Shown: piece after piece, positions 1-32,159 of the stretch
Layout: each line of letters begins with the position of its first letter
How positions within the stretch are numbered: the first letter of the stretch is position 1
DNA from: Candidatus Electrothrix rattekaaiensis
Lineage (GTDB): Bacteria; Desulfobacterota; Desulfobulbia; Desulfobulbales; Desulfobulbaceae
Length of the DNA stretch: 64,000 bases
Direction: 5' to 3'
Assembly: GCA_032595675.1 (NCBI GenBank)
Contig: JAVQMD010000001.1
Span: forward strand, 1,954,640 to 2,018,639
The notes under the pieces: model-generated
Told to the model about the DNA's origin: nothing
Databases searched by the model: none
The model's input: the letters and a program-made list of their open reading frames with translations, nothing else
Translations under genes and position numbers: made by a program

Positions 1-482
1 CGTCTACTTCTTCTCGGCCACGTCAACCATACAGAAGGAGAGATTCTCGTCAAAAAGTTTTCTTCTTTCTCTGTATCAGTATTGTACAAATTGTCTGTCC
101 ATTCACCGCTCACTCCCAAGGCGGCATGAAGAAATCCATTTCGATAGCCAAACACTCTGCCGTCAGCATCAACATTTTCTTCTTCCTCGACCAAATCCTG
201 ATTACCGACCTGATTATCGACAGCCTCGCTCTCTGGCTCTGATAGTATTACAGGGGCTCCTTGATCTTGATATTGATCTTGAACGAGAACTTGATCCTGA
301 TATACAGAAGATCCTTGGTCTTGGATCTGGTCATTGTATATCACCGTTGCCATCGGCAAATCAGAGGGGGACGACATCCCAACCTTATTGTACTCCTGTG
401 CCCCTGAAAAATTCGCTTGTGAGCTCACCAACAGAAGCAACGCACTGCTCATATATTTATATTTTTTAGACCGACTATCCAT
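1..482 (-). CDS. Partial outer-membrane beta-barrel-like protein (N-terminal 160 residues)
   Basis: This frame is open from the ATG at 480-482 to the left edge, so the gene is truncated by the window. The N-terminus has basic residues (RSKKYKY) and then a hydrophobic stretch ending in SSQANFSGA, a signal peptide; the internal ATG at residue 11 would give a more compact one. Residues 45-75 are rich in Gln-Asp (QDQG, YQDQ), followed by an acidic linker. The last residues (GFLHAALGVSGEWTDNLYNT, then RISPSVWLTWPRRSR) resemble the first strands of outer-membrane barrels found with exopolysaccharide export genes. Barrel type and partner are inferred; the C-terminal part is not visible. Confidence 0.7.
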   Translation of the reverse strand, partial: MDSRSKKYKYMSSALLLLVSSQANFSGAQEYNKVGMSSPSDLPMATVIYNDQIQDQGSSVYQDQVLVQDQYQDQGAPVILSEPESEAVDNQVGNQDLVEEEENVDADGRVFGYRNGFLHAALGVSGEWTDNLYNTDTEKEENFLTRISPSVWLTWPRRSR

Positions 483-24558: not shown

Positions 24559-24810
24559 AACACGTTTAAATCACCTTGATTGCAACTTAAATCGGCCTGA
24601 TTTACATTTAAATTACTCTGATTCACACTTAAATCGACTCGATTGAAGTGTAAATTGATCCGATTTACATTTAAATTGCCCTGATTGAAGTGTGAATCGC
24701 CTTGATTGAAGTTTAAATTGACCCGATTTAAATTGAAATCGTCCTGATTGAAGTGTGAATCGTGTTAATTTAAATTTAAATTGCTCTGATTCAAGTGTAA
24801 ATCGCTTTGA
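24559..24810. repeat. Tandem array of 12 degenerate 21-bp units
   Basis: Exactly 252 bp in phase, each unit like TTGAAGTGTAAATCGCYYTGA, with changes at many positions but no length change. Units alternate between variants beginning TTTACATTTAAATT and TTGAAGTGTGAATC. On the minus strand most of it is open and would give 7-residue repeats (RFTLQSG, QFKLQSR), but a stop falls within the array and there is no ribosome site. There are no unique spacers, so it is not a CRISPR. Confidence 0.85.
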
Positions 24811-25361
24811 TTGAACCGGCAAACAGGGTACTGCAAACAACAAAATATGCGTTGTTGGTCGCCTTTGGGGGATGAGCTTCTGCAAAAAAGGCGATGAATG
24901 CCGTTCCTTGAACAGAATTAAAGGATTAGCTCTTGTTTCGAGAAATTGCAAGAAGAAAAAGCGGTTATGTTTCTTTTCCTGCTCATAAAGAGTGCTCTTG
25001 GGATTCGAGCCATTAATACACCTTTCAAACCCGCAGGCTGCGCGGTTTGAAAACGGGGCTGTGATACCGTAAAAGTACATTTTTTTGTTTTTTAATGGAG
25101 TGCTGTGTGTAAAAAAGATTCAATTCAGCACTGTTGAGAATAAATCATTGTTTACATTGATTATTATTTATGTGGTAATTAATAATAAAAAAATGAATAA
25201 TTCAAAGCATATTGCATATCCGGCGATTTCTCTTCATCTGTAATAAATTTTCCTTTTTAAAGATGGTATGTATTATGCATTGATTTGGTTAATTAATTTG
25301 CATGATGTTTTCATAGCAGGTTCTTTCTTTCACATAACTCGCTTTCTGGATATTGCGGAAT
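24811..25361. other. AT-rich region ahead of the riboswitch
   Basis: About 550 bp without a convincing gene. A minus-strand open frame (24613-25080) overlaps the 21-bp array but has no ribosome site. The second half is very AT-rich and should hold the promoter of the riboswitch transcript. Confidence 0.4.
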
Positions 25362-25450
25362 CAGAAAGTTGATAAAGCCACAACCGTCGCGAGGCGGTGT
25401 CGGAAAGCCACGGATCTCTGGAGAGGAGACAGCCGGGTTACCTGCTTTTA
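25362..25450 (+). promoter_or_regulatory. Cyclic di-GMP-I (GEMM)-like riboswitch
   Basis: The order of conserved parts matches the GEMM-I aptamer: GATAAAGCCACAACC, a hairpin closed by the GNRA tetraloop GCGA (CCGTC-GCGA-GGCGG), then GGAAAGCCACGG, a variable hairpin (ATCTCTGGAGAGGAGAC), and the hallmark AGCCGGGTTACC. The 5' strand AGCCACAACC differs from the usual GGCAAACC, so ligand preference (c-di-GMP or cGAMP) cannot be read. It sits about 300 nt ahead of the 25744 gene on the same strand. The expression platform is not obvious. Confidence 0.7.
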
Positions 25451-25743
25451 TTTGAAACCGGAAAGTGTGCTGTGAAGTTCTCGGAACATGTATCCTGCTG
25501 GGATACCGCCTCCAGTCATCCTGATAAGTGTATTTCTTTCAGTTTTCTCTGTCCGCTTGTCATCCAGTTATTTTTCTCTCTTTGCATAGATTCTTTAAGT
25601 AATAATAAGCTGAAGAGGCTTTATTCGTCTTTTCGATACGGATCAATACTGTTTCTGCATTTCCGTAGTGTTTCGGTACAGAAGAGCAACAAGCGGTACG
25701 GCGTGGTGCTGTTCCGCATAAACATAAATAAGCGAGGTGTACG

Positions 25744-28329
25744 ATGTTACGGCTGAAGAGCTTGATCTGGTACCTGGTGTTGTTATCGCTTGCATTTCCT
25801 TTGGGGAATGTGTGGGCGAAGAAGCCAAAGAGTGACGAAGCAGTGGTGTCAGGGATTACCCTTGATGTAATGAGGATTGAGGCGTGTGCTCGGAAAAAAA
25901 GATGCACTGTAGCCAGCGGGCCTATGCAGCTGGATCTGCTTGAGCTGGCTGATGGTAAGGTGGATTTTGCCAATCAGGTGTTGTTGCCTGAAAGGACCAG
26001 AGAGTTGCGGCTTGTGTTGGGAGAGAACAACACGATTACGGTTGATGGTGAATCTTTTCCTTTGACTGTGCCGAGCGGGCAGACTTCCGGGCTGAAGTTG
26101 AAGGGGCGGAAAGCCTTCGGCAAAGAGGGCGGTTTTCTGTCTGGTTTGACGTTGGATTTGAACTTGCGAAAGCAGCTTGTTGTTCAGGCGAAGAAAGTTC
26201 GGCATAAAGAAAAAGGGCGACATGGGAAGAAGAAAGTTTCCTATGTGTACTCATATAAGCTGAAGCCGGTTATCAAGGTGGCGACAGCTGAGGTTGCGCC
26301 CTTGACCGAGGATAACATAGCGGCTGTTGTGGCAATGCCGAATGAGGAAAACGAGATAAAGATCGGTGAGAGCTTTTCTCTGGTGATTCCTGCGGGAGCT
26401 GTTGCTACTCCTATGGTGATTTCCGTAAAGGAGACAAAGTATACTGTTGAGGTTATGGATGAGGACACTGGCGAAGTGGTCGAAAAGCCTGCTCTGTCTT
26501 CAAACTATGAATTAAGTCCTGACGGGGCGGAATTTGATGAGCCTCTGGTGGTAACTCTTCCGTACTCTCCAGAAACGTTGCCCTCTGAGGTGTCGGAATA
26601 TGATCTGGCAGTGTACCTTGACGCAGAAAAGATTCCCACGGATATAAATACAATGTCCAAAACTGCTACTGCGGATGTTTGGCATTTTACTAATGTGACC
26701 GTCAGTTCTCCGCAGGCTACTGGTAATTTTGTTTTTCCCTTTGATAATGAAAGAAATGACGTATGGCAGCTTTGTCAGGGATATAATACGCCGAAGATTT
26801 CGCACGGGAGTGCGACTTATCCTAATCTAATTCACGCCTTCGATTTTGCCTATGGGACAGGGAACCTTGGCGCAACAGGATGTTGGGCCAAAGAATGGGG
26901 AAAAAACGACTATGCTTCAGAAGATAAAACCGTTGTTGCACCGGCAGATGGAATAATTATCAAGAACTCCGGAGATATCACCGTTTTTCAGTTAAAGGTT
27001 CCTGTATCAAACGGGCACGGAAAGCAGATCAAGTGTATTAGGCTTGGGCATATAAAAAGCAACAGTGCCAGAATGAAGGCTGATCCAAAGATTGAGCTTG
27101 CACAGGGGACGCTAATCGGTAAACTGAGCAGCCCTACAGTCAGTGCTGGCAAATATGCTCATCTTCATATGGCTGCCTATGCTACCACTAACTGTACTGG
27201 TGTAACTGTTCCGTTTGGCACTGTCTTTGGCTCAGGGTATCCCGATTTCAGTAGTAATGGGAGTAAACATCAATGGCATGGAACGGAAATTCCGGCAGGT
27301 GGTTCGCAACCAACAACTTGTCCGAACGGCGACGGGCTGTATTGCGGCGGTGCTGTGTCACGTGATATGAATACTCTCTACCGCTGTACGGACGGAGTGT
27401 ATTCGGTTGAGGAACAGTGCTCCGACGGCTGTCAGACAATGTCCTCCGGTACGAACGACCAATGCAGGCAAGTACAGGCAAGCTGTCCGAGCGGCAACGG
27501 ACTGTACTGCGGCGGTACGGTGTCACGTGATGCGAATACTCTCTACCGCTGTACGGACGGAGTGTATTCGGTTGAGGAACAGTGCTCCGACGGCTGTGAA
27601 ACAATGCCTTCCGGTACGAATGACCAGTGCAAGGATGTTGTCCTTTCTGTTGTTAATTCGATAACTCCCAGTAATACTACTTTAGACAGTTTAACTGTAT
27701 TTACAGTACTAGGAACAGATTTGCCTTCAACTTTGGCATTCTGGATTGAAGAGTGTGAAAATGTCACCTATGTAGGAGGAAACTCAGCCGCACAGCAGTT
27801 TAGCTGCACACCAAGATGGACAATCGGGACAAAAAACGGGGTAATTAAGGACAACGTAGGAGGCAATGTTCTGTATAACTTTACGGTTAATGTCTCTGCT
27901 GCTACACCTGGAACCTGCACCAGTGGTCCACAAACTATGGTATGGCAAGGTTTGGAATGGCAACGTTGTGATGATAACTGGGCTTATACCTATGAAGCAG
28001 CTATAGATTACTGCGAAGGTCTTATCTTGGATGGTTATTCCGATTGGCGACTACCCACCAAAGACGAGTTGAAGAGTTTGGTGGTATGTAGTAACGGTAC
28101 TCCGACTCCACTTGCTGATGACTATGGTACACCTTCTCATTGTGGCGATGGTAATAGCGCACCGTATAATAAGCCGACAATTGATTCGTCTTTCGTCGGA
28201 CAGATTAATTCTTATTGGTCATCTACTGAATATAACGCTACTGCTGCTTGGGAAGTCAATTTTGGCAGTGGCTGGAGTCACCATACTATGCCCAAGCTTG
28301 TCCAGAATGCCGTACGATGTGTGCGGTGA
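25744..28329 (+). CDS. Secreted multidomain protein: DUF4382-like, M23-like, Cys-rich repeats, DUF1566
   Basis: 861 residues with a signal peptide (LIWYLVLLSLAFPLGNVWA). Residues 33-170 resemble DUF4382 beta domains. Residues 355-500 have the M23 (LytM) zinc pattern, His364-x2-Asp367 in HAFDF and His473-x-His475 in HLH, so a peptidoglycan hydrolase or a relic of one. Residues 526-635 are two 55-residue Cys-rich repeats (GLYCGG, LYRCTDGVYSVEEQC, DGC). An IPT-like stretch follows, then a C-terminal DUF1566/C-type-lectin-like domain (WQRCDDN, DWRLPTKDEL, YWSSTEY, AVRCVR). It is preceded by a GEMM-like riboswitch and followed by a terminator, so c-di-GMP probably sets its expression. Confidence 0.85.
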   Translation: MLRLKSLIWYLVLLSLAFPLGNVWAKKPKSDEAVVSGITLDVMRIEACARKKRCTVASGPMQLDLLELADGKVDFANQVLLPERTRELRLVLGENNTITVDGESFPLTVPSGQTSGLKLKGRKAFGKEGGFLSGLTLDLNLRKQLVVQAKKVRHKEKGRHGKKKVSYVYSYKLKPVIKVATAEVAPLTEDNIAAVVAMPNEENEIKIGESFSLVIPAGAVATPMVISVKETKYTVEVMDEDTGEVVEKPALSSNYELSPDGAEFDEPLVVTLPYSPETLPSEVSEYDLAVYLDAEKIPTDINTMSKTATADVWHFTNVTVSSPQATGNFVFPFDNERNDVWQLCQGYNTPKISHGSATYPNLIHAFDFAYGTGNLGATGCWAKEWGKNDYASEDKTVVAPADGIIIKNSGDITVFQLKVPVSNGHGKQIKCIRLGHIKSNSARMKADPKIELAQGTLIGKLSSPTVSAGKYAHLHMAAYATTNCTGVTVPFGTVFGSGYPDFSSNGSKHQWHGTEIPAGGSQPTTCPNGDGLYCGGAVSRDMNTLYRCTDGVYSVEEQCSDGCQTMSSGTNDQCRQVQASCPSGNGLYCGGTVSRDANTLYRCTDGVYSVEEQCSDGCETMPSGTNDQCKDVVLSVVNSITPSNTTLDSLTVFTVLGTDLPSTLAFWIEECENVTYVGGNSAAQQFSCTPRWTIGTKNGVIKDNVGGNVLYNFTVNVSAATPGTCTSGPQTMVWQGLEWQRCDDNWAYTYEAAIDYCEGLILDGYSDWRLPTKDELKSLVVCSNGTPTPLADDYGTPSHCGDGNSAPYNKPTIDSSFVGQINSYWSSTEYNATAAWEVNFGSGWSHHTMPKLVQNAVRCVR

Positions 28330-28395: not shown

Positions 28396-28432
28396 GCCCT
28401 GAGTCCCCCCGGATTCAGGGCTTTTCTTTTTT
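28396..28432 (+). terminator. Terminator after the secreted protein gene
   Basis: GCCCTGA, a loop of about 12 nt, TCAGGGC, then TTTTCTTTTTT. A similar hairpin (CCCTGA...TCAGGG) recurs at 29569-29600. The roughly 280 bp that follow, up to the PIN gene, show nothing I can name. Confidence 0.8.
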
Positions 28433-28714: not shown

Positions 28715-29119
28715 TTACTCCAGGTAAGCGTCCACGAACTCTCTCGGCTTCAGAACCTCTATTCTCTTATATCCAGAGATGTTCAGTAAGTGTTTATCCC
28801 CACTAACAATCAGCTTGCTTCCGCTGGCAATTGCACACTCAATAAATTTGTTGTCATCAGGATCTTCGCAGATTGTCTCTTTGATGCCTTCTGTTCCGAC
28901 AAATTCTCCAAAGATGGTAAAGAGTTCTAGAATCGGCTCAATGTTAACAGAAGGGTATTTCACCGACAACTCCTTTCCCACGCGTTGATATTCCTCCAGT
29001 ATTTCTTTGGTGAAGATGATCTGAATTTGAGAATGCTTCCAGGATGTAAGAATCTCTGAAGGTGGGCCACCAAAGAAAATTGCAGAAATGAAAACATTTG
29101 TATCCAGAACAATTCTCAT
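28715..29119 (-). CDS. PIN-domain toxin (VapC-like ribonuclease)
   Basis: 134 residues. The PIN acidic residues are present: Asp6 in VLDTNVFIS, Glu in TKEILEEY, Asp in EDPDDNKFIECAI and Asp in VSGDKHLL. Such toxins cut RNA and are held off by the cognate antitoxin. The start overlaps the AbrB-type antitoxin stop by 4 bp (ATGA), the usual antitoxin-first arrangement. Belongs to the family often named putative toxin component, PIN family. Confidence 0.88.
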   Translation of the reverse strand: MRIVLDTNVFISAIFFGGPPSEILTSWKHSQIQIIFTKEILEEYQRVGKELSVKYPSVNIEPILELFTIFGEFVGTEGIKETICEDPDDNKFIECAIASGSKLIVSGDKHLLNISGYKRIEVLKPREFVDAYLE

Positions 29120-29379
29120 TTTTTGCCCCGGACTTTTTTTATCGCATCTGCGATATCAGACTTCTTTAATCCTGCATTTTCGCCATCCGACCTTGCCTGG
29201 GCGATTAAATCGTCAAATTCATCAATGGAAGGCGGTGTAATGCTTTTTAATATGACAACATCTTTATCGCCGACAACGATAAACTGAGCACCGGCGTTCA
29301 GGTTGAGAGTTTTACGGATATTCTCAGGGATGACGACCTGCCCTTTGGATGACATTTTTGTAGTGGACACATCTACCAT
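29116..29379 (-). CDS. AbrB/MazE-fold antitoxin
   Basis: The ATG at 29379 follows GGAGGTTAATT and gives 87 residues, starting MVDVSTTKMSSKGQVVIP; the SKGQVVIPENIRKTL block is the swapped-hairpin DNA-binding fold. The C-terminal part (DDLIAQARSDGENAGLKKSDI) should wrap the PIN toxin. A perfect palindrome just upstream (29402-29417) is a likely operator for autoregulation. Confidence 0.85.
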   Translation of the reverse strand: MVDVSTTKMSSKGQVVIPENIRKTLNLNAGAQFIVVGDKDVVILKSITPPSIDEFDDLIAQARSDGENAGLKKSDIADAIKKVRGKK

Positions 29380-29401
29380 AATTAACCTCCATGAAATTTT
29401 C

Positions 29402-29417
29402 ATCTTACATGTAAGAT
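29402..29417. promoter_or_regulatory. Palindromic operator of the AbrB/PIN pair
   Basis: ATCTTACATGTAAGAT, a perfect 16-bp palindrome, 22 bp upstream of the antitoxin start codon. Confidence 0.55.
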
Positions 29418-29492
29418 TATGGCGTAAACGTGGTTTTATGGCAAGTTGTATTACTGGGACGAGTTGAAAATCTGCTCAAGCAGCCCGGTAGG

Positions 29493-29518
29493 TTGGGGTG
29501 AGGTGGTACGAACCCCAA
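29493..29518. repeat. Intergenic hairpin of the GGTTGGGGT...ACCCCAA type
   Basis: TTGGGGT, 12 nt, then ACCCCAA, preceded by GTAGG. Related short hairpins are scattered in many bacterial genomes; only this copy was seen here. Confidence 0.4.
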
Positions 29519-29568
29519 AAATCATAAGGCGAGTCAGAACCCGATTAATCAACCTCTGAGAGATACAG

Positions 29569-29600
29569 CCCTGAGTCCGGCAGGATTCAGGGTTTTCTTT
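29569..29600 (+). terminator. Terminator-like hairpin
   Basis: CCCTGAGTCC, loop, GGATTCAGGG, then TTTTCTTT. It duplicates the terminator at 28396 and has no plus-strand gene in front of it, so it may be a moved or leftover copy. Confidence 0.5.
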
Positions 29601-29616
29601 GCCTGTTACTTCCATT

Positions 29617-29756
29617 GACAATCACACAAAAATTACACACACGGAAAAAACAAAAAAAAGGGGTTGCAGCCAATAAGCTACAACCCCTTGAATATACTAT
29701 GGTGCCCGGAGCGAGAATCGAACTCGCACAGTTACAAGAACCGAGGGATTTTAAGT
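29617..29756 (-). repeat. Attachment-site copy 1: tRNA-Leu 3' fragment plus terminator
   Basis: 29700-29756 is identical to the last 57 nt (with CCA) of tRNA-Leu at 32434-32490, and the tRNA terminator hairpin (GGGGTTGCAGCC...CTACAACCCC) and the ACACACGGAAAAA stretch are copied too. The match stops in the anticodon loop. Read with copies 2 and 3, it marks the far end of two tandem insertions behind tRNA-Leu. Confidence 0.85.
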
Positions 29757-29963
29757 AATTCAGCCGTCGTTTCCGCAAACTTCTCTTTTGTTCTGAATTC
29801 TTTAATATTGCAGGGAATTTTTAGGTTTCGCCATACTGTCGAATACTGGCGTTTTTTGGAAAATTCCCTGTTTTTCTTGGCACGATTACACAGGAATTAC
29901 ACACGCTATTACACAGGGTAAAAATGTGTAACCCTTTACCATGAAAAGAATTCGTTCGTTTGT

Positions 29964-30641
29964 TCAGAAATTATTCAGTTCATTTTCATGCACAACGAAT
30001 TTTCTGAAGTGATGCACCCACCATTTCAGGCTGTGAGGGTATGCCAGCGGCTTATTGGTTTTCCGGTGGCAGTAGTTCAGCTGCTTCAGCCATCGTGTTG
30101 TTTTTCTCAGCTGCTCAAAGTCAATCCGGTACTGATGATAGATCAGATAGACTTCAACCATGAATCGGGATATCCGTCCGTTTCCGTCGTTGAACGGGTG
30201 GATAGAGACAAACCGTTGATAAAATCGAGCGGCAATATATACCGGATCAGGAGGGGACAGCGTGAGTGAAGAAATATTTTTCCGCAACATGCTGTCGATC
30301 ATGAGCGGATCGGCTCCGGCAAACTGATTGGTTGACGGGCCAAAGAATACTTCTCCGTTGTTCGGATCAGTTATCTTGCGATACCCTCCGGCATTGTTCA
30401 GGATACCGCCAAAAAGTTGTTTATGGAGTTCCTTCGGGATTTTCTGAAAGAAGGCATAAACAGCTTGATTCGATAGTTCTTTCAGCTCTTCGGTAAATTC
30501 TTCCGCACTTGCTAAATTATTCCAGAAATCTTTAACTTGTTCATCCGCCTCATCAAGAGAGAGCTGCGGATAAACAGGGAAAAGTTGCATAAGCTCTGCA
30601 AGGTATTCCCTTTCGTGTTTATCATCATGCGAGTGAAACAA
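29964..30641 (-). CDS. Fic-family AMP transferase (toxin)
   Basis: Up to 225 residues from a TTG start 5 bp after the upstream stop; an in-frame ATG at 30590 is the other candidate. The Fic core motif HPFNDGNGR (residues 148-156) is intact, with the flap region (GGYRKITDPNNGEVFFGPS) before it. Such enzymes AMPylate targets such as gyrase or EF-Tu. I see no clear inhibitory (S/T)xxxE(G/N) helix inside the protein, which fits control by a separate antitoxin, the DUF4065 protein encoded immediately upstream. Confidence 0.88.
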   Translation of the reverse strand: MFHSHDDKHEREYLAELMQLFPVYPQLSLDEADEQVKDFWNNLASAEEFTEELKELSNQAVYAFFQKIPKELHKQLFGGILNNAGGYRKITDPNNGEVFFGPSTNQFAGADPLMIDSMLRKNISSLTLSPPDPVYIAARFYQRFVSIHPFNDGNGRISRFMVEVYLIYHQYRIDFEQLRKTTRWLKQLNYCHRKTNKPLAYPHSLKWWVHHFRKFVVHENELNNF

Positions 30642-30646
30642 GTGAA

Positions 30647-31267
30647 TCAGAAGATTTTTTGCATGAAGCTTTGTACTGACACATCAGACTTTTTCCGCCG
30701 CTCCAGGTAGTTTTCATAAGAAGGATATGAGGCATAGGTTTCCGCCTCCTCTTCGCTCATATCCATTGTGAATGAATACCAGGAATTGGTTTTCAGAACA
30801 TAGTACTTCCCTTCCTTCCAGGATTTCCCCTGAAAGTTTTTTGCAAAGGAACGTTTGGAATAGTAATCATAGATAACTTGATCGGAAATAACCTGATCGG
30901 GTGGAGTATCTTTCCAAGGCGTTTCTTTATGCGTCATCGCACTCAGGGCCACGGCGGAATGGTTCACATAATGATCAAGGATGAATTTCAACAGCTCTGC
31001 ATCTTCATCCGTTATATGCTGCTGTGAAGAGGTTGCAGGGGTTGGAATAGGCTGCTTGCTGAAATCCCTATAGGAACAAAAGAGAGGTCTGTTCACCGGG
31101 CCGTAGTCCCATCGTTCAAACACAGCATCAGTACACGGCCTGCCCGCAACAAGTGACCATACCTTTGCGTAGTAGGCAAGTTTCTGCAATTTCATCGGAG
31201 TGATATTCTTATCAGGGTAAGAAATCAGGATGAATTCTGCGAGTGTGGTGGCGTTGACCTGTTGCAT
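30647..31267 (-). CDS. DUF4065 (Panacea) antitoxin-like protein
   Basis: From the ATG at 31267 (MQQVNATTLAEFIL) the product has 206 residues; a longer start at 31306 is less likely. ITPMKLQKLAYYAKVWSLV with ERWDYGPVNRPLF is the diagnostic DUF4065/SocA-like block. These domains act as antitoxins for unrelated toxins. It directly precedes the fic gene (5-bp gap). The C-terminal 60 residues (KSWKEGKYYVLKTNSWYSF) are specific to this member and may contact the Fic protein. Confidence 0.85.
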   Translation of the reverse strand: MQQVNATTLAEFILISYPDKNITPMKLQKLAYYAKVWSLVAGRPCTDAVFERWDYGPVNRPLFCSYRDFSKQPIPTPATSSQQHITDEDAELLKFILDHYVNHSAVALSAMTHKETPWKDTPPDQVISDQVIYDYYSKRSFAKNFQGKSWKEGKYYVLKTNSWYSFTMDMSEEEAETYASYPSYENYLERRKKSDVSVQSFMQKIF

Positions 31268-31291
31268 AATGATAAATGGCGCGTCGGGCGG

Positions 31292-31362
31292 GTTACAGGA
31301 ATACAATCATATCAGTATGATTATTGTATCCTGCTGTCTATCTGCTGTCAATTGTTCTGAAA
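31292..31362. repeat. Dispersed 71-bp palindrome-containing repeat, copy B
   Basis: Second copy of the element at 23768-23838. Its core GGAATACAATCATA-TCAG-TATGATTATTGTATCC region is a near-perfect hairpin. It lies just upstream of the DUF4065 gene, where it may affect expression. Confidence 0.6.
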
Positions 31363-31370
31363 GGGCTACC

Positions 31371-31518
31371 AGTATTACACACACACGGAAAAAAATATAA
31401 AAAAAGGGGTTGCAGCCAATCGACTACAACCCCTTGAATATACTATGGTGCCCGGAGCGAGAATCGAACTCGCACAGTTACAAGAACCGAGGGATTTTAA
31501 GTCCCTTGCGTCTACCAG
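31371..31518 (-). repeat. Attachment-site copy 2: tRNA-Leu 3' fragment plus terminator
   Basis: 31446-31518 matches tRNA-Leu 32434-32506 (73 nt), lacking only the first 15 nt of the gene, together with the same terminator hairpin. It therefore lacks the 5' acceptor strand and cannot be a working tRNA. It separates mini-islands A and B. Confidence 0.88.
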
Positions 31519-31530
31519 AACGTAGAGTGG

Positions 31531-31612
31531 GCAACGGACAATAACGAGAACAACGTTGACAACGCGACAGCTTTTTCATCAAAACAGGATAAGATGAACC
31601 GAAATGTTGCCC
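31531..31612. repeat. 82-bp direct repeat flanking the Phd/RelE pair, left copy
   Basis: Begins GCAACGGACAATAACGAGAA and ends TTGCCC; 32253-32335 is the same sequence with one inserted base and a few changes. The first 20 bp recur at 22715. Confidence 0.85.
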
Positions 31613-31635
31613 ACACTACTGTCTGTCCAGTGAAA

Positions 31636-31927
31636 TTACTCAGTGCTACGTCCGGCAGCCTTTTTATACACCCTGCTCTTCTCCCGTTTTCCCACAGCCA
31701 CCACAACAACGACAATTTCAGCGTCCAGAACCCTCATACACCAACCTGTAACCGACCGACCGCAGTTTGATTTTGTACCTGTTGACACTGCCTGAAAGTT
31801 TGTCAGCAGGTACATGCGGATTTTTCAGGCGTTCAGCAAGTTTTTTCTTCAACTGCTTTTTGATTGTCCCGTCCAGAGCTTTCCATTCTTTCAAGGCATC
31901 CGTCAAAAACTCAAGCTTATAAATCAT
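31636..31927 (-). pseudogene. RelE-family toxin gene with a +1 frameshift
   Basis: From the ATG at 31927 the product starts MIYKLEFLTDALKEWKALD and proceeds through the RelE fold to GYRLVYE. There the frame shifts at GGG (31731-31733) and ends after GSGR. Dropping one G restores VLDAEIVVVVVAVGKREKSR and a normal C-terminus ending at 31636. The lost part holds catalytic residues, so the toxin should be dead unless the shift is a sequencing error or is bypassed. It overlaps the antitoxin by 11 bp. Confidence 0.8.
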
Positions 31928-32159
31928 CCAAATCCACCTTGATCCTCTCCTGGTCTGCACGGGCATCAGCAAGGGCATTCAGTTCCATATCTTCCAGCCT
32001 ATTCAACAGGTCTTCATACGCCCTTGCCGGAACACAATAAAACGCAGGTTTGTTGCGGTTTAGGATGGCTACGGCTTCGCCTTGACCAACGACCTTCATC
32101 GGATTCTTCTTTAAATCTGATATACTTGCTATTCTGCTACTCAAAATAAGATCCGTCAT
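31917..32159 (-). CDS. Phd/YefM-family antitoxin
   Basis: 80 residues: SRIASISDLKKNPMKVVGQGEAVAILNRNKPAFYCVP is the DNA-binding Phd fold, followed by a helical toxin-binding tail (EDLLNRLEDMELNALADARAD). It precedes and overlaps the relE-like gene. Retention of an intact antitoxin beside a broken toxin fits decay of the pair. Confidence 0.88.
   Translation of the reverse strand: MTDLILSSRIASISDLKKNPMKVVGQGEAVAILNRNKPAFYCVPARAYEDLLNRLEDMELNALADARADQERIKVDLDDL

Follow-up and report, generated by a model that had tools for sequence, protein, structure and literature searches.

We describe a riboswitch in a 64,000-nucleotide (nt) stretch of the genome of Candidatus Electrothrix rattekaaiensis (assembly GCA_032595675.1, contig JAVQMD010000001.1, positions 1,954,640 to 2,018,639 of the forward strand; the whole stretch is called the window here, and positions below are counted within it); the host belongs to the Electrothrix group of cable bacteria. 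The element, a class I cyclic di-guanosine monophosphate (c-di-GMP-I) aptamer ahead of a short leader open reading frame (ORF) and of a gene for an 861-amino-acid (aa) protein, is probably (at a probability of about 0.62) a riboswitch that would turn translation off at high c-di-GMP, its design being one that, in this analysis, occurs in cable bacteria alone. A reading made from the DNA letters alone (the sequence-only reading) had already proposed a switch of this class; new relative to it are an upstream strand complementary to the Shine-Dalgarno (SD) region, the leader ORF and the finding that the genome carries 21 copies. What is new here is the expression platform, the aptamer class being already known. 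This platform precedes the aptamer, a less usual placement, and its anti-SD strand predicts repression by c-di-GMP. If true, this would show plainly that one and the same aptamer class has changed its platform, and probably its regulatory sign, inside one bacterial family, and the repeated RNA cassette could show which exported proteins of cable bacteria follow c-di-GMP, and in which direction (surface, gliding, attachment).

A cmscan of the window with Rfam release 15 placed RF01051 (c-di-GMP-I) on the forward strand at 25367-25445 with 54.6 bits (gathering threshold 35, E 6.4e-8), and RF01051 matches were found in 0/14 control genomes. The motifs named by the sequence-only reading were present where it put them, and its aptamer class is borne out by this covariance-model match. 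When 25340-25470 was searched alone, the c-di-GMP-I-GGC variant model RF03167 came top of the clan with 56.0 bits, below its own threshold of 59, and so the element is filed as c-di-GMP-I. In the RF01051 alignment its selectivity position (20 in Vc2) is G and not the A of GEMM-Ib, and the other two ligand-contacting letters are the canonical A and C, which we take to be those numbered A47 and C92. The 5' strand does deviate, as the sequence-only reading had claimed: the pairs beside the ligand site are C-G/C-G against a consensus of G-C/C-G, and ACA stands in place of AAA, as in all 21 own copies. Since CCACA is present in 21/21 aptamers of the genome, and CCAAA or CCAAT in the 17 extracted relatives outside genera g1 and g12, this deviation is typical of the lineage and is not damage. 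According to published excerpts (papers are cited here by PMC number, each represented by part of its text), A20 is the mark of cyclic GMP-AMP (cGAMP) switches and the change A20G moves selectivity toward c-di-GMP (PMC6456294), and position 20, with G11 of Cd1 equivalent to G20 of Vc2, is a selectivity factor and no hard filter (PMC9262584). By its sequence the element is a c-di-GMP-I riboswitch, with c-di-GMP as its presumed ligand, and the 13 GGDEF and 4 EAL domains encoded by the genome count in favour of our reading.

The upstream strand has two competing partners (Table 1), one being the SD region of the leader ORF and the other a hairpin arm beside the aptamer. Because this arm (25361-25368) overlaps the 5' strand of the aptamer helix P1 (25364-25369), the hairpin excludes both P1 and the SD pairing. 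The two pairings are each fitted copy by copy. In a permutation test, the duplex energy of the upstream strand and the SD within each copy was compared with that obtained when the SDs were dealt out among the copies; for 18 copies of this genome the mean was -13.68 against -11.07 kcal/mol and 0/10,000 permutations were as good, as was also the case for all 57 copies (0/10,000), with 4/10,000 for 35 named copies and 10/10,000 for 11 E. aarhusensis copies. For the hairpin, in which the upstream strand meets the P1 5' strand of the same copy, the corresponding figures were 15/10,000 (own 18), 0/10,000 (57 copies), 1/10,000 (35 named copies) and 33/10,000 (11 E. aarhusensis copies). As the copies are related to one another, we take these figures as strong support and not as exact probabilities. 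When 24 segments of 25 nt were scanned in the 18 own copies, only the two that start 40 and 30 nt upstream of the aptamer showed the SD signal (z -2.4 and -4.4), z for the remaining 22 lying between -1.2 and +2.6, and neither a downstream control (z +2.6) nor the P1 5' strand (z +1.5) fitted the own SD better than shuffled.

The own 18 exclude A21, in which no SD was recognised and which is therefore out of all SD tests, and A05 and A18, which were judged to be near-duplicates of A04 and A08; when these two were put back (20 own copies), the SD permutation was still 0/10,000. The named set comprised 40 contexts minus L049 (at a contig edge) and L042, L046, L048 and L064 (no SD or start), and the 57-copy set was made up of the 35 remaining, the 20 own copies, L080 and L081, the SD positions of the last two being set by hand. 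Fisher tests on the pairing used paired cells only and were biased, and the permutations were relied on instead.

In the proposed mechanism, the upstream strand (CUUUCUGG) would fold, in the absence of ligand, as a hairpin with the P1 5' strand, so that the ribosome-binding site would be easier to open. On binding of c-di-GMP, P1 would close, claim its own 5' strand and free the upstream strand, which would then pass outside the aptamer to pair with the first ORF's SD and block initiation. Over the 57 copies, the calculated mean cost of opening the SD was 7.1 kcal/mol when P1 was enforced and 3.7 when the upstream hairpin was; the hairpin lowered it in 50/57 copies (in 44 of them by 1 kcal/mol or more) and raised it by 1 or more in 2, and in the window copy the costs were 10.2 and 3.0 kcal/mol respectively. 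The SD being easier to open in the hairpin state, a ligand that stabilises P1 should close it, giving a translational OFF switch. On average the two states differ little in energy, that of the hairpin state minus that of the P1 state having a mean of -1.35 kcal/mol (range -12.4 to +4.9).

Several observations weigh against this reading. Even without ligand, the window copy prefers its closed state by 2.8-3.8 kcal/mol, so that switching would have to be kinetic, and would rest on the hairpin forming first during transcription. When P1 alone was forbidden, the SD stayed mostly paired (mean open probability 0.15 vs 0.13 with P1 enforced), and relative to P1 forbidden it was more open with P1 enforced in 3/57 copies and less open in 7/57; in the hairpin state, too, it still has the mean opening cost of 3.7 kcal/mol given above. 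The start codon of the window copy was chosen by hand, and the relatedness of the copies makes the permutation figures overstate their independence. Besides the window, the aptamer pattern was found in the fetched flank of 2/8 loci with a relative of the N-terminal part of the 861-aa protein, and the pairing of gene and switch is thus not universal. Overlap of leader and main gene, tried as a gauge of translational coupling, occurred at 3/7 loci against about 1.65 expected, which is within chance.

Control of the large gene would pass through the 94-codon leader, either by translational coupling or by early transcription termination in untranslated leader RNA; the main gene's own SD is partly paired locally, and we infer the coupling of leader and gene. 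The script picked an ATG at +42 (25488) as the leader start in the window, and the GTG at +26 (25472) was set by hand because L080 and L081 share this GTG and its codons; an ATG at the alternative place is absent from L080 and present in L081. The aptamer recurs with the same GTG and with similar first codons at loci in two other genomes: in G063 the leader has 69 codons and overlaps its gene by 13 nt, and in G060 it has 139 codons and ends 36 nt short of the gene. There was no clear protein-level constraint on the leader, synonymous and non-synonymous divergence being similar over 55 codons (e.g. 0.39 and 0.36), with a weak synonymous excess over the first 40 codons in one pair (0.34 vs 0.20). 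The sequence-only reading had put the switch ahead of a large secreted protein, and this holds in so far as the aptamer is upstream of the gene and the protein has a signal-like start (by eye), but the first neighbour of the aptamer is the leader ORF; the link that it drew to attachment or motility is a plausible hypothesis. A small hairpin (GTATCCTGCTGGGATAC) lies at 25490-25506 in the first leader codons, and the changes in L080 and L081 keep most of its pairs.

The 4.48-Mb genome holds at least 21 RF01051 matches, of 49-61 bits each and all of one tight subtype, a count that is possibly a lower bound since 150 of 320 first-look candidates were scored. The start codon of the first ORF lies 25-39 nt past the aptamer (set by hand in two of the 21). 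A pattern built from the 21-copy form and run over the genome collection returned 38 stretches, all from Candidatus Electrothrix, Candidatus Electronema or "Desulfobulbaceae bacterium". RF01051 matches numbered 9 to 27 per genome in the 8 genomes of the window's genus, and at least one was found in 41/73 genomes of the family. Near the other own copies the first or next ORF was taken, and 18 ORFs from 18/20 copies (A06 and A17 excluded) were searched against Pfam; targets are given here for all except A02, A04, A06, A16 and A17. They encode RHS-repeat proteins (A13, A20), a CAP protein (A15), a beta-helix/TSP3 protein (A05), a protein with a PilJ N-terminal domain (A09), a hemerythrin (A14), a phosphonate-binding protein (A21) and seven proteins with a signal-like start and no Pfam match at E<=0.01 (A01, A03, A07, A08, A11, A18, A19); the A10 ORF likewise had no match at that threshold.

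Outside genera g1 and g12, a terminator-like stem that takes the aptamer 3' strand as its 5' arm was present in 16/16 uncut relatives from six genera, and this use of the 3' strand predicts transcription ON with ligand. Terminators of this type were found in 0/58 copies of the window's subtype (0/21 own, 0/37 other cable copies) and in 0/3 copies from g12, the genus holding Electronema, where the upstream layout was seen by eye. The 20 relatives for this comparison were taken from the best listed matches; L129 is cut by a contig end, L135-L137 fall in g12, and L135 and L137, having the same sequence as the named L073 and L053, were not counted twice. Within the window's genus, G063 carries a triple tandem of c-di-GMP-I aptamers (L103, 1240-1700), 3/3 with their own terminator and followed by an Hcp-like ORF, and in the tandem of G059 (L102) there were three Rfam matches, of which the pattern caught two, one of them scored as having a terminator; RF01051 and the variant models also list the tandem aptamers. 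Cable bacteria can thus hold both designs, the window's subtype having the upstream one. We regard it as an even question whether an ancestor of the cable bacteria swapped the terminator for an upstream anti-SD strand, and so ON for OFF, whereupon a cassette of strand, aptamer, ribosome-binding site and first codons would have spread over about 20 genes, mostly for exported or surface proteins, as a genome-wide post-transcriptional c-di-GMP regulon of a single design, one member of which would since have taken the cGAMP letter. Elsewhere in the family, outside cable bacteria, a genome of genus g14 (G072) has 25 c-di-GMP-I aptamers, 6/6 of those examined having terminators, and copy number there thus grew with the other platform.

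One own copy, A18 (L018/L118; G000:C2:1008362-1008439, reverse strand), has A at position 20, and is the sole such copy among the 21. This A-form occurs once each in 4/71 family genomes, all in the window's genus (loci L018/L118, L117, L119 and L120), and related 124-aa ORFs lie downstream in 3/4. Among the 13 GGDEF domains, one (L114; G000:C1:268769-269236, reverse strand) has Thr at the Hypr selectivity position and an intact GGDEF motif, and so do its relatives in 8/8 genomes of the genus; Ser or Thr together with GGDE[F/Y] is described as the Hypr pattern (PMC6456294), and the protein is by its residues a candidate cGAMP synthase.

These Hypr-like domains and the sister aptamer with A at position 20 are what would favour cGAMP as the ligand of the window copy, but the window aptamer has G20, on which we rejected cGAMP; we consider it very improbable. 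Still less credible is transcriptional control by an intrinsic terminator, since for all the terminators of the uncut relatives and of the G063 tandem there was none in the own or other cable copies of the subtype, and a search between the window aptamer and the leader ORF found no downstream terminator. Our first idea had been a translational ON switch, with the aptamer 3' strand (UACCUGCUUUU) masking the ribosome-binding site until ligand frees it; by eye ACCU and CUUUU can pair with many SDs, and this strand is free in the hairpin state, where it may be what still closes the SD. Folding and permutations did not support it, pairing of the SD with the aptamer 3' strand being predicted at <=0.05 in 54/57 copies and its fit to the own SD being no better than shuffled (z +1.5 for the own 18, +3.7 for all 57), and we hold it to be improbable.

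It is also conceivable, though unlikely, that the upstream strand masks the SD for some other purpose (as a thermometer, for a small RNA or in simple attenuation) or that the window copy is locked OFF, c-di-GMP having little effect. The preference of the window copy for the closed state without ligand would suit this, as would its weak SD and GTG start, where many sister copies have AGGAGG and ATG. However, the upstream strand is matched copy by copy to the 5' strand of P1 as well, and this links it to the aptamer. The aptamer core is undamaged, and two other genomes retain the arrangement with a GTG leader; these points speak against such a reading.

With RF01051 the window element shares sequence and structure above threshold and G at position 20, and it differs in what flanks the ligand site, C-G/C-G pairs and ACA, and in having its platform upstream of the aptamer. 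The Vc2 riboswitch of Vibrio cholerae tfoY, of the same class, is described in the excerpts as translational OFF with P1 decisive (PMC9262584, PMC7371385), so the OFF outcome is not new, and if the masking strand of Vc2 also lies upstream then neither is the type of platform. The c-di-GMP-I switches of related genera are of the same class and from the same family but have a transcription terminator and are predicted to be ON. The pilM-type GEMM-Ib switches of Geobacter, also an electron-transferring bacterium, belong to the same superfamily and occur in many copies per genome (thirteen loci in G. metallireducens, PMC9262584), but unlike the window copy they sense cGAMP, have A20 and are transcriptional ON. 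Single and contiguous c-di-GMP riboswitches are reported as enriched in Thermodesulfobacteriota, in an excerpt that leaves Electrothrix unmentioned (PMC12452182). Among the papers listed for cable bacteria with riboswitches or c-di-GMP, titles and the starts of abstracts showed nothing on this regulon, in a collection with few subscription papers. Gliding motility is described in cable bacteria (PMC10580974, PMC7873302), and in the excerpt of PMC10580974 neither riboswitch nor GGDEF nor cyclic di-GMP comes up; nothing here ties the window locus to gliding.

Table 1. Features of the riboswitch locus and of the 861-aa protein (positions in the window unless given as residues)
Feature	Position	Strand	Remarks
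Upstream anti-SD strand CGCTTTCTGG	25340..25349	+	pairs with 25458-25467, 10 pairs plus 25338:25469; duplex -15.2 kcal/mol
Upstream-hairpin 3' arm	25361..25368	+	pairs with 25342-25349; duplex -10.5 kcal/mol; overlaps P1 5' strand
P1 5' strand	25364..25369	+	pairs with 25444-25449, 6 pairs; nearly invariant, no covariation signal (z -0.3, +1.4)
c-di-GMP-I aptamer	25367..25445	+	RF01051
P1 3' strand	25444..25449	+	partner of 25364-25369
Leader-ORF SD region CCGGAAAGTG	25458..25467	+	site GGAAAG and start codon set by hand
Leader ORF	25472..25756	+	GTG start, 94 codons; 13-nt overlap with 861-aa ORF; GTG and first codons kept in L080, L081
861-aa open reading frame	25744..28329	+	signal-like start by eye; Pfam searches
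DUF4382	residues 53-148		861-aa protein
ZU5-like	residues about 212-279		just above cut-off on isolated part
Weak M23-like	residues about 391-479
Two cysteine-rich repeats	within 27314-27638		861-aa protein; two direct repeats of 160 nt, 88% identical
Lcl_C (DUF1566, PF07603) tail	residues 735-861		E 3.6e-21, 76.1 bits vs 34.9
Terminator-like stem-loop after gene	28396..28421	+	11 pairs, 7 G-C, T-rich tail; scan 4 sites vs 4.0 expected

In the 861-aa protein itself, the DUF1566 tail of the sequence-only reading was recovered well above the cut-off as PF07603, and the possible peptidoglycan hydrolase (M23) that it suggested found no such backing. The whole protein gave no M23 match at E<=1 in Pfam, PF01551 reached a sub-threshold 17.2 bits (cut-off 28.7, E 0.006) on residues 325-522 alone, and a 3-sequence profile run against PDB sequences found no M23 structure at E<=1. 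The metal ligands of M23 enzymes lie in HxxxD and HxH motifs, and an HxH and an H-x-x-D were invariant in the 3 sequences, the spacing of the first motif differing from this. On these results the hydrolase assignment was left as weak. Single-sequence structure models of the whole 861-aa protein and of its residues 325-522 (mean predicted local distance difference test scores 34.8 and 27.9, respectively) were useless. Relatives of the N-terminal third in G063, G060 and G058 have 72-77% identity, with tails that are largely different.

A promoter-like site at 25157-25186 was given no weight, as 8 such sites were found against 6.8 expected. Further upstream, 21-nt direct repeats lie at 24702-24815, inside a 155-aa reverse-strand ORF without a Pfam match, and beyond the gene three neighbouring reverse-strand pairs in 28715-32159 match the toxin-antitoxin families PIN_3/MazE, Fic/SocA_Panacea and ParE/PhdYeFM.

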